From Alphaproteobacteria bacterium (GTDB taxonomy: Bacteria; Pseudomonadota; Alphaproteobacteria; RF32; CAG-239): a stretch of 64,000 nucleotides of DNA. The notes below the pieces were generated by a model. It saw only the letters and a list, made by a program, of their open reading frames with translations, had not been told where the DNA came from and made no database searches. Both the position numbers and the translations under genes were made by a program. Numbering within the stretch: position 1 is the stretch's first letter; every line of letters begins with the position of its first letter. Location of the stretch: contig JAQWBS010000007.1 of the NCBI GenBank assembly GCA_028706255.1, positions 1 through 64,000 on the forward strand, written 5' to 3'. This document shows positions 26,733 through 30,129 of this stretch, in pieces.

Positions 26733-27220
26733 TGGCTAAATTAGAATCTTTGAAAGATTTGAAATCTGCTTCTTCAGAAACTTCTACTCCTGCAACTGCT
26801 AAAGTTGAAGTTCGTAAAGCGAATCGTGATAAATTCGGTCGTTCTTATGCAACAGGCAAGAGAAAAGACGCTGTTGCTCGTGTTTGGGTTAAACCTGGTA
26901 AAGGCAACATCATCATCAACACAAAGACAATTGATCAATATTTTGCACGTCCAGTTTTGAAGATGATTATCAATCAACCTTTCCAAGTAACAAACCGTGA
27001 AGGTGAATTTGATGTGATTTGTACAGTTAAAGGTGGCGGACTTTCTGGTCAAGCTGGAGCTATCAAACATGGTATCTCTAAAGCCCTTAACGAATATGAA
27101 CCTGAACTTAGAGCTGCTTTGAAAAAGGCTGGTTTCTTAACTCGTGACGCACGTGTTGTTGAACGTAAGAAATTCGGTAGAGCAAAAGCTCGTAGATCTT
27201 ACCAATTCTCTAAACGTTAA
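26732..27220 (+). CDS. rpsI: 30S ribosomal protein S9
   Basis: 162 residues: a variable N-terminal extension of about 40 residues, then the conserved [17 protein letters not shown], the [15 protein letters not shown] segment and the C-terminal tail ending YQFSKR, which reaches toward the P-site tRNA in the ribosome. The last 21 bases of the gene are the left boundary (attL) of an integrative element. The same six residues plus stop are encoded again at 30018-30038 with one synonymous change, so the insertion left the protein intact. Confidence 0.96.
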
Positions 27221-27222
27221 TT
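27200..27222 (+). repeat. attL of the integrative element
   Basis: Last 21 bases of rpsI plus TT. Matches 30018-30040 in 22 of 23 positions (A against G at the third position of a Gln codon). Confidence 0.85.
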
Positions 27223-27283: not shown

Positions 27284-27301
27284 ATTCACAAAAAATTCAC
27301 A
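27284..27301 (+). repeat. 18-bp direct repeat, left copy (candidate integrase arm site)
   Basis: ATTCACAAAAAATTCACA, identical to 29950-29967 near the right end. A third partial copy, ATTCACAAAA, lies at 27347-27356, before the integrase gene. Confidence 0.6.
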
Positions 27302-27371: not shown

Positions 27372-28868
27372 ATGGTGAAAAAGATAGATACTAAATATTA
27401 TCAAGATGTAAATGAATATCGTGATGGTATGATATTAATATATAAAAGAGAAGGCTCCCCGAACTATCAATGCCGATTAAAAATTGATGAAGGAAAAGGT
27501 AAGGCTTACGAGGTTAAATCCTGTAAAACTCGTAATCTAGGTATAGCGCAAAAATTAGCCGAAGATTGGTTTGATGATTATCGTTATAAAGTAAAAAATA
27601 AACTACCTCTTAAAACTAAAACTTTCAAAGAAATATATAAAGATTGGATAAATCAAGCAGAAAAATCTCAAAATAGACAGAAGTTTTATGAGGGTAGGGC
27701 AAATTTGTATCTATTGGAATATTTCGGCAATTATAAAATTGATGAGATAAATGAAGATATCGTAAGAGGATATTGGCAATGGAGAAAAGATTATTATAAA
27801 AATAACCCTAATAAAATTAAAGGTAATGTTGCAGTTGAACCATCTCCTACATCATTAAAGATGGAAAGAACTGCAATAGAGGAAGTATTTAAGTATGCTC
27901 AACGAAAGAGGTATATTTCTATCATTCCTTTTGATGGTTATAAAATAAGAGGTGAAACGGAATGCAGAGATGAGTTCAAGTTAGATGAATTGACTAAGTT
28001 AAAACAAGAATTTTTTCTATCAACGCTTGATTCAAATCAAAAAAAGAGCATCGAATATCAAAAAAAGATGTTATACAATCTTGTTGTTTTTTTAGTAAAT
28101 ACAGGAATTAGGCCAACAAATGAAGTTTATGGTATTAAATGGAAGCATATTAAAGTTTCCAAAGACAATGAGGGAAGATATATTCTGCAAATTGATATTA
28201 TGCCAAATAATAAGACAGGAGCAAGAATAGTAATCAGTAATCCAGAAGCATATGATGTTTATAATAATATTAAGGGATTTTCTAAATATAAAGATGCTGA
28301 TGATTATTTTTTTAATAATTATAACAATGGTAGCCCAGTAAAAAATATCAGCAAAACGTTTATTGAAAAACTTAAAGAGTTAAATCTTTATATAAGTGAA
28401 AATGGCAAAAAAAGGCCACTATATTCTCTGCGACACACTTATGCTACACAAAGATTGCTAGCAGGTGTAGAAGTGTATAATTTAGCAAAAAATATGGGAA
28501 CATCAGTAAAAGAAATTGAAAAACATTATGGGCATACAACCAATCCTCAACTCACAGATAAATTAGTTAAAAACACTGAAATTTCTAGTATTCAGGAATA
28601 TATGAAAAGTGATAGATATAAAAAAAAGCAAAAAGAAAGAGAAAGAGAAAGAGAAATTAATAAACAAAAAGCTATAGAAAAAGAAATAGAAGAGGTTCGT
28701 TTATTGCTTGAAAAAGATGAAGAGGCATTTTCATTATTTACTGAAGAAATTAAGAATGCTAAAAATATGGATGAATCTAATAAAATTTATGAAAAATACT
28801 TTAGCAAAAAAGCAAAACCATTTTCAAAATCAAAAATGATTACATTTTTTAATCATTTTAATAAATAA
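27372..28868 (+). CDS. Tyrosine-type site-specific integrase
   Basis: Catalyses integration and, with helpers, excision at the rpsI end. 498 residues: an N-terminal arm-binding region, a SAM-like core-binding domain (about 70-180) and a catalytic domain. The catalytic Arg247 is in NTGIRPTNE, the second Arg354 with His355 in YSLRHTYAT, and the Tyr386 nucleophile in IEKHYGH. The first box histidine is replaced by Tyr, as in many phage integrases. A long Lys/Glu-rich coiled tail of about 80 residues (around 415-498) follows the usual end. The start has GAGGTG upstream. It faces away from attL, the normal orientation for an element of this kind. Confidence 0.92.
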   Translation: MVKKIDTKYYQDVNEYRDGMILIYKREGSPNYQCRLKIDEGKGKAYEVKSCKTRNLGIAQKLAEDWFDDYRYKVKNKLPLKTKTFKEIYKDWINQAEKSQNRQKFYEGRANLYLLEYFGNYKIDEINEDIVRGYWQWRKDYYKNNPNKIKGNVAVEPSPTSLKMERTAIEEVFKYAQRKRYISIIPFDGYKIRGETECRDEFKLDELTKLKQEFFLSTLDSNQKKSIEYQKKMLYNLVVFLVNTGIRPTNEVYGIKWKHIKVSKDNEGRYILQIDIMPNNKTGARIVISNPEAYDVYNNIKGFSKYKDADDYFFNNYNNGSPVKNISKTFIEKLKELNLYISENGKKRPLYSLRHTYATQRLLAGVEVYNLAKNMGTSVKEIEKHYGHTTNPQLTDKLVKNTEISSIQEYMKSDRYKKKQKEREREREINKQKAIEKEIEEVRLLLEKDEEAFSLFTEEIKNAKNMDESNKIYEKYFSKKAKPFSKSKMITFFNHFNK

Positions 28869-28919
28869 AAATGAGTTCATTTTATTTTTGCATTTTAAAT
28901 ATTGGTTGATGTAAAATGA

Positions 28920-28978
28920 TTTCATATTGTTAGTGGTGAATGGGATTTCTACCACTAACTGAAATCCCAATTTCATAT
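28920..28978. repeat. Interleaved inverted repeats flanked by TTTCATAT
   Basis: GTTAGTGGT (28929-28937) is complementary to ACCACTAAC (28951-28959), and TGGGATTTC (28941-28949) is complementary to GAAATCCCA (28961-28969). The two perfect 9-bp pairs interlock. TTTCATAT sits on both sides (28920-28927 and 28971-28978). The block ends directly at the ATG of the Rep-like gene. It could be a rolling-circle origin, an operator or a switchable RNA. Confidence 0.75.
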
Positions 28979-29515
28979 ATGAAAAAAACAATAGGTAAGC
29001 GTAGTTATTCTCCTTGCTATTTATTACAAAAAAAAGTGCCAGAATGGCGCTATAAAATTTTATTACTTAAAGATATTATTAAAGGATTAGATAAACAAAT
29101 GACTAAATTATTATATACGATTCAACCAAATAAATATTGTTGTTCAAGATTAAAATTGATAAAAGATTTTCAATCAGTTTTAAAAAAATATTATAGAAAA
29201 ACTCTTGGGCCAAGATATTATAAACACAAAGATAAACAATATCCTATGTTTATTTATCTTTCAAACGGTGATGATGGAAAAATCACACACCCTCACTTTC
29301 ATATAATTATTAATGATATTGATGTTGAAAAAACGGGTGAATTTCATTTTCATATGTATAGAGAAATGAAGAAATTGTATCCATCTTTGACTTCTGATAT
29401 GCAAGATTTACCAACAGTGGAAGATGAAGTCAATGCACACAAATATTCCGCTGACCAAAGCCAATCCTTATTCATTCACAAAGATTTATACGGAATGATT
29501 ACGTCAATTAATTGA
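28979..29515 (+). CDS. HUH-motif replication-initiator-like protein
   Basis: A 178-residue protein. HPHFHIII at 104-111 gives the His-hydrophobic-His pair (His106, His108) that binds the metal in rolling-circle Rep proteins and relaxases. A preceding beta strand, YPMFIYLSNGDDG, fits the same fold. Candidate nucleophile tyrosines follow (Tyr in HKYSADQS and KDLYGMI), but I cannot choose between them. It resembles the YagK/YfjJ and inovirus Gp2 type of small Rep proteins. An earlier in-frame ATG at 28940 lies inside the interleaved repeats, so 28979 is preferred even though its ribosome-binding site is weak. Probably nicks the element's origin. Confidence 0.65.
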   Translation: MKKTIGKRSYSPCYLLQKKVPEWRYKILLLKDIIKGLDKQMTKLLYTIQPNKYCCSRLKLIKDFQSVLKKYYRKTLGPRYYKHKDKQYPMFIYLSNGDDGKITHPHFHIIINDIDVEKTGEFHFHMYREMKKLYPSLTSDMQDLPTVEDEVNAHKYSADQSQSLFIHKDLYGMITSIN

Positions 29516-29542
29516 TAAATATATTCATATCAAGGAGAAAAT

Positions 29543-29743
29543 ATGGATATTAAGAATAATCAAATTAAATCAATGAATGAAAGAATAAAGGGGTTAATGA
29601 GCAAGAATAAGGAACTAAATAGTCAACTTGAACAAGAGCCTCTGGAACAACAAGAACAGAAAATTAAGCAAGATAAACTTGATAATAATAATGAATTAAG
29701 AAAGCAAAGAACTCAAAAATATGAGTTATATTGCCATTGTTGA
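29543..29743 (+). CDS. Small coiled-coil protein of the element
   Basis: A 66-residue, highly charged protein rich in Lys, Glu, Gln and Asn, probably one long helix or coiled coil over residues 5-58, ending CHC. AAGGAG lies at a good distance before the ATG, and it follows the Rep-like gene by 27 bp in the same direction. It could be an accessory factor for replication or excision; nothing in the sequence decides. Its 3' end overlaps the small minus-strand gene at 29713-29844. Confidence 0.5.
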   Translation: MDIKNNQIKSMNERIKGLMSKNKELNSQLEQEPLEQQEQKIKQDKLDNNNELRKQRTQKYELYCHC

Positions 29744-29844
29744 TTAGCATATTCATCATATATCGTTTGTATAAAAGATGTGATTGGATTTAATCCAGTA
29801 ATCCCTTTAATTACTGCTTTCCCACCACTTAAAGCTTTACTCAT
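29713..29844 (-). CDS. Very small protein of the element (43 residues)
   Basis: Starts Met-Ser-Lys-Ala-Leu-Ser-Gly-Gly and contains GITGLNPITSFIQTIYDEY. AAGGA stands at good distance before the ATG on the minus strand. Its last ten codons overlap the end of the plus-strand coiled-coil gene. It may be a true small protein or the stub of a longer phage-type protein. Family unknown. Confidence 0.4.
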   Translation of the reverse strand: MSKALSGGKAVIKGITGLNPITSFIQTIYDEYANQQWQYNSYF

Positions 29845-29949
29845 TGTTTTTTTCCTTATTATTTAAGTTCATTATTATTTAGGAATTTTTATTGACTAAT
29901 GCAATAGTCGTAATTAAGGCATAATTTATAGAAATAAAAATTAATTAAC

Positions 29950-29967
29950 ATTCACAAAAAATTCACA
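29950..29967 (+). repeat. 18-bp direct repeat, right copy
   Basis: ATTCACAAAAAATTCACA, identical to 27284-27301, 51 bases inside attR. The 100 bases before it (29845-29949) are AT-rich with a short GACTA...TAGTC palindrome at about 29894 and no gene. Confidence 0.6.
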
Positions 29968-30017
29968 CTGATTTTTTATTGTAATTAACTTATTGTTTTA
30001 ACATATATAAAAAACAA

Positions 30018-30040
30018 TACCAGTTCTCTAAACGTTAATT
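30018..30040 (+). repeat. attR of the integrative element
   Basis: Second copy of the rpsI terminus, coding Tyr-Gln-Phe-Ser-Lys-Arg-stop with CAG instead of CAA for Gln. Confidence 0.85.
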
Positions 30041-30064
30041 CGTTTTACAGAATTCGAAGTCAGA

Positions 30065-30094
30065 AAAGAGGAAGTTTTTACTTTCTCTTTTTTT
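30065..30094 (+). terminator. Probable original rpsI terminator, displaced by the element
   Basis: AAAGAGGAAGT pairs with ACTTTCTCTTT (one G-U) around TTTT, followed by T. It begins 24 bases after attR and would have followed rpsI before the insertion. Confidence 0.65.
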
Positions 30095-30129
30095 GTTGCC
30101 TTTTTTAAGGAAGATGTTATTCCTTTAAG

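Follow-up and report, generated by a model that had tools for sequence, protein, structure and literature searches.

The interlocked inverted repeats upstream of a small HUH-type rep gene in this alphaproteobacterial DNA are a real folding element, probably one undescribed so far, and its most likely function, judged from sequence comparison, would be that of an RNA switch acting on rep. We consider it reasonably probable that the repeats form a structured, bistable 5' leader of pseudoknot topology in the rep mRNA of small integrative elements. Coordinates refer to the window, i.e., the whole 64,000-nucleotide stretch that was analyzed, and are collected in Table 1.

Table 1. Features of the integrative element in the window
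Feature	Positions	Strand	Remarks
Left att half	27200..27222	+	rpsI 3' end, TACCA[A]TTCTCTAAACGTTAATT; direct repeat of 30018-30040
Tyrosine integrase of the element	27372..28868	+	PHROG integrase, E 3.8e-6; weak Pfam Phage_integrase match
Predicted -35, TTGCAT	28888..28893	+	TTG-N3-18-TAnnnT pattern
Predicted -10, TAAAAT	28912..28917	+	conserved 18-bp spacing to -35
Arm A, 5' strand	28929..28937	+	28928-28938 in the family-wide 11-position frame
Arm B, 5' strand	28941..28949	+	
Arm A', 3' strand of stem A	28951..28959	+	11-position frame: 28950-28960
Arm B', 3' strand of stem B	28961..28969	+	
Second leader motif, GTAGTTATTCTCC	29001..29013	+	ATTCYCC-type end common to most homolog leaders
Short leader hairpin, GTGCCA-gaa-TGGCGC	29036..29050	+	fold; hairpin at the matching place before rep in most homologs
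Likely ribosome-binding site, AAGGA	29082..29086	+	AAGGA in homolog leaders
rep, 138-aa HUH-type Rep-like protein	29099..29515	+	conserved T, P, HxH, and Tyr positions; start ATG 29099
Truncated DUF6626-type protein	29543..29743	+	downstream of rep in the elements; matches the first third of a 157-aa homolog
Right att half	30018..30040	+	copy of rpsI 3' end; repeat of left half

The 41 bases at 28929-28969 read GTTAGTGGT-gaa-TGGGATTTC-t-ACCACTAAC-t-GAAATCCCA, giving two 9-bp pairs in the order A, B, A', B', with spacers of 3, 1, and 1; both pairs are perfect on rereading of the letters, exactly as an earlier, sequence-only reading of this DNA had described them. That reading also placed TTTCATAT on both sides of the arms, where it indeed lies (28920-28927 and 28971-28978), and took it as part of the feature, a view we abandon because homologs do not share these flanks. 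A perfect 14-bp palindrome (TTTCATATATGAAA, 28972-28985) directly follows arm B' and was not seen in the homologs. The claim that so tight an interlock is rare by chance was borne out. Arms of at least 9 in A-B-A'-B' order within ~90 nt occur a single time in the 64-kb window. With a tight perfect interlock defined as perfect arms of at least 8 and spacers of at most 4, 2, and 2, there is one in the window and there are seven in 258 kb (the window plus related loci), and every one of the seven precedes a rep homolog. The window has an interlock score of 34.4, and a score of 33 was reached by 0 of 1,200 shuffles; 15 of the 16 loci read as motif bearing, L054 being the exception, score higher than each of 60 dinucleotide shuffles of their own sequence.

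The downstream gene had been called HUH Rep-like, and this identification stands: the HxH motif is invariant in 12 of 12 aligned Reps, the tyrosine is found in 10 of them (the column lacks a Tyr in two divergent members), and the structure model is ferredoxin-like, with moderate confidence (pLDDT 74). Its start had been read as codon 28979, directly after the motif; alignment with 11 homologs instead places it at ATG 29099, which leaves the motif 129 nt upstream. The profile match to REP_ORF2-G2P is weak and below the cutoff (the best is that of homolog L025, E 6e-4), and AAV Rep domains appear only among weak fold matches. Among 152 genomes from the bacterial family, 24 carry Rep homologs; the nearest named relative is an uncultured Alphaproteobacteria genome. 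Searches of IMG/VR, plasmids, and phages returned no relatives except a microvirus Rep, matched weakly (E 0.04). Among Pseudomonadota, an even draw of 398 gave a match only in the window's own genome, and an even draw of Alphaproteobacteria gave two weak Rep relatives, upstream of which no clear motif was seen by eye. The window's genome also holds a second rep copy (L061, G000:C4:277844-278257), its frame broken by one stop, which carries its own intact interlocked motif in letters unrelated to those of the window.

A search for the same arrangement before homologous Rep genes yielded 17 distinct motifs at rep-bearing loci of the bacterial family (distinct motifs are counted because some near-identical loci share one), with the A-B-A'-B' order kept and spacers of nearly zero. 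Most often the geometry is 11-3-9-0-11-0-9, and the majority of the rest lie within one or two bases of it, with looser spacing in L028, L030, and L056. Arm identity between loci is just 33 to 39%; native arms pair at 98 to 100% and swapped arms at 46 to 55%. Watson-Crick pairs fill 302 of the 324 paired positions, the remainder being 19 G-T, 1 A-C, and 2 other. G-T had in part been allowed when the arms were chosen, so a fairer count takes only deviations inside a stem that have two or more Watson-Crick pairs beyond them, and it gives 7 G-T, 0 A-C, and 1 other; G-T lengthens the arms in many loci, and A-C does so marginally in one locus only.

Covarying arms among relatives, on which the sequence-only reading had staked its interpretation, were found in both stems. 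When 14 motifs were brought into one frame by manual padding with N, a placement that favors the named structure, paired cells amounted to 98.9%, versus 58% after shuffling, and there were 117 double-change cells, spread over 20 of 22 pairs, versus 35 after shuffling (0 of 500 shuffles). The cluster 1 subset of six motifs shows double changes in 14 of 20 pairs, again with 0 of 500 shuffles. Sliding the partners by 1 to 3 columns makes the signal collapse, a single column dropping the pairing to ~40%.

The two full hairpins are mutually exclusive, as had been proposed: there is almost no spacer between A' and B', and a third loop of 0 to 1 nt cannot span 9 to 11 bp, so full stems A and B cannot coexist. 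Since both stems covary over nearly their whole length, either at least two alternative states appear to be selected or a hybrid pseudoknot is selected together with the full A hairpin. The orientation is constant, and A is the longer, first stem in most loci; predicted stabilities are -8 to -15 kcal/mol for A and -5 to -13 kcal/mol for B, with A the more stable in 14 of 17. The within-stem deviations are G-U and not A-C, which indicates that it is the sense strand that folds; G-T pairs form in sense single-stranded DNA too and do not alone separate RNA from single-stranded DNA.

A sigma-70-type TTG-N3-18-TAnnnT pattern ends 6 to 17 nt before arm A in 12 of the 17 loci (shuffle mean, 0.4), a count that takes in related, non-independent loci; the other five lack the exact pattern. 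Because the loci are related and the window's own promoter is missing from a general promoter scan, this support is family-level evidence. If the prediction is real, arm A begins within ~10 nt of the transcript start, which would be expected near 28924. The sequence-only reading had raised an RNA switch at the start codon as one option; the switch is favored by the G-U strand bias and the predicted transcript start, but its position at the start codon is not, given the rep start above. A leader peptide was considered and rejected: short frames sharing an [FI]-[RH]-P start were seen by eye in several leaders, and the frame shifts between close relatives.

Other structures accompany the motif in these leaders. 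A second hairpin, with a varying outer stem round a conserved GAATGTTRAATAACTAC, is present in L034, L052, L053, L061, L062, L056, L051, and L035 and, where its distance was measured, lies ~230 to 270 nt ahead of the Rep domain; in L051/L035 its inner GTT/AAC pairs become GCT/GGC and GCC/GGC. The GAATAACTAC of this hairpin is the reverse complement of the GTAGTTATTC found at 29001-29010 in the window and also in L038. The leaders of L025-L033 have a hairpin and then a CTATTATNAACTATTAYC-like sequence immediately ahead of the ribosome-binding site of rep. Although the rep genes of L025 and L038 are nearly the same, their leaders differ, and the changeover falls in the vicinity of this structure, which could be a nick or recombination point.

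The arms themselves do not track Rep identity. Near-identical Reps are preceded by different arms (L025/L026, 97% identity; L025/L038, 99%), and diverged Reps are preceded by identical arms (L033/L049, 75%; L053/L062, 73%). Leader and rep seem, from these comparisons, to reassort, and what is kept would be a shape rather than letters read by Rep. Rep thus seems indifferent to the letters of the arms, and this weakens both the nick site and the operator that the sequence-only reading had also proposed; neither survives as a site read by its sequence. A double-stranded operator, with two interleaved palindromes downstream of the promoter bound by a repressor or by Rep for autoregulation, would suit a motif just past the -10 whose arm centers lie 20 to 23 bp apart, about two helical turns. 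Yet a double-stranded dyad has no strand sense, and the deviations stand at 7 G-T to 0 A-C on the sense strand; nor is a repressor gene seen in the window's 2.8-kb element. Together with the different arms of near-identical Reps, these points make an operator improbable.

A DNA-level role retains more weight, although we still consider it unlikely. Hairpins in the rep-sense strand would here be part of a rolling-circle origin, double or single strand, and help to expose or load the nick region; their shape would be what Rep or host proteins recognize. The motif lies upstream of an HUH Rep-like gene, a frequent place for such origins, and strand-specific G-T pairs suit sense single-stranded DNA equally. 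The further leader hairpins and their conserved loop motifs (GTAGTTATTC in cluster 1 and its reverse complement, GAATAACTAC, in cluster 2) suggest DNA-level sites nearby. HUH initiators are also known to have nick sites exposed in hairpin-like structures (PMC5714925), which we count in favor of an origin. Against it, the arm sequence is neither conserved nor follows Rep (a nick-site test on the arms only), and neither the single orientation nor the predicted transcript-start position is required of an origin. The motif is, moreover, absent from six rep relatives (L031, L032, L055, L057, L058, and L059), two of which, L031 and L032, retain the promoter-like region and the neighboring ATTCCCC hairpin. 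The relatives that lack it share the Rep fold, so the motif is evidently dispensable.

For the two-state leader RNA that we prefer, events might run as follows. Transcription would begin at ~28924, a few bases before arm A, and in the nascent RNA, A would pair with A' first, giving a hairpin of 9 to 11 bp with B held in its loop. The emerging B' would then pair with B, and because B, A', and B' abut, stem B could grow only while stem A opens. With roughly half of A open, an H-type pseudoknot could form, and the RNA would shift among the A hairpin, a half-A/full-B H-type pseudoknot, and the B hairpin. Its state would probably set the amount of Rep, e.g., with the 5' end hidden from or exposed to decay or with the downstream leader refolded. 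That 5' stem-loops protect bacterial mRNA is established, and such protection is one plausible route to the Rep level. The transcription start, the switching, and the effect on the Rep level are steps that we infer. Counting against this reading are the five loci without the exact promoter pattern, the rep relatives that do without the motif, and the failure to find an antisense promoter or a terminator of the kind that a classic attenuator would have.

Action in trans is a further alternative. That the motif is a separate small RNA, or an RNA acting between element copies instead of controlling rep in cis, would fit a motif that starts at the promoter and changes while Rep stays nearly constant, as well as the unrelated arms of the two copies in one genome (the window and L061). 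In the window, however, the stretch from the motif to rep has no terminator, and no convincing motif was found near DUF6626 loci without rep, and we regard this as the most improbable of the alternatives. There is a slim chance that the motif represents a new class of bistable leader, in which zero-spacer, full-length hairpins exchange by branch migration and the diversified arms serve as type-specific pairing signals; same-type copies would then sense or exclude each other in trans, with one sense RNA as the incompatibility determinant.

The element in the window spans 2.8 kb, and its integrase, motif, rep, and truncated DUF6626-type gene are flanked on either side by a copy of the rpsI 3' end; the att repeat is 17 bp exact or 23 bp with one mismatch. 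L035, from another genome, carries at this rpsI site an integrase and a rep related to those of the window, and the full-length 157-aa homolog of the truncated protein matches DUF6626. Other members are larger elements with resolvase, tyrosine, or large serine recombinases. L025-L035 represent an integrative-element family of gut Alphaproteobacteria with rep, a DUF6626 gene, a 63-aa gene, ankyrin-repeat cargo, and a resolvase, in which integrases are exchangeable and sit at tRNA or rpsI sites. An 18-bp direct repeat (ATTCACAAAAAATTCACA) lies inside both ends of the window's element, at 27284-27301 and 29950-29967; these repeats are possibly integrase arm sites. The motif was rejected as an att site or integrase-linked repeat, as it travels with rep and the integrases differ and sit elsewhere.

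Among known systems, the pT181 repC attenuator and the IncI/B/K repY-repZ leader pseudoknot are structured leaders before replication initiator genes, controlled by antisense RNA and using long-range pairing. Like them, the motif would be an untranslated structured leader that precedes a replication initiator gene and in which pairing is alternative or pseudoknotted. It differs from them in that two full stems of 8 to 12 bp cross with almost zero spacers and that rep here encodes a small HUH protein of integrative elements. An antisense-controlled attenuator of the pT181 type was rejected, no consistent antisense promoter being found over the leader, as was a transcription attenuator, with 0 terminator-like sites in 28600-30100. 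The A-B-A'-B' topology and alternative hairpins of similar stability are shared with H-type pseudoknots and engineered bistable RNAs; in H-type pseudoknots, however, the third loop is long enough to cross stem 1, whereas here it is 0 to 1 nt in most loci and the full stems cannot form together. Rolling-circle double-strand origins of HUH replicons likewise have hairpins upstream of the HUH rep gene, but they keep a Rep-matched nick sequence, unlike the arms here. No Rfam covariance model matched over the motif at the gathering score, the best weak match being a microRNA model (E 0.06).

The motif marks an integrative-element family in gut Alphaproteobacteria whose Rep had no confident counterpart among the phage and plasmid collections that were searched. 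It is short (~43 nt), with a nearly constant geometry and many natural sequence versions, which makes switching, expression, and copy control directly testable. Two crossing, fully covarying, and mutually exclusive stems constitute strong comparative evidence for a natural two-state nucleic acid switch.
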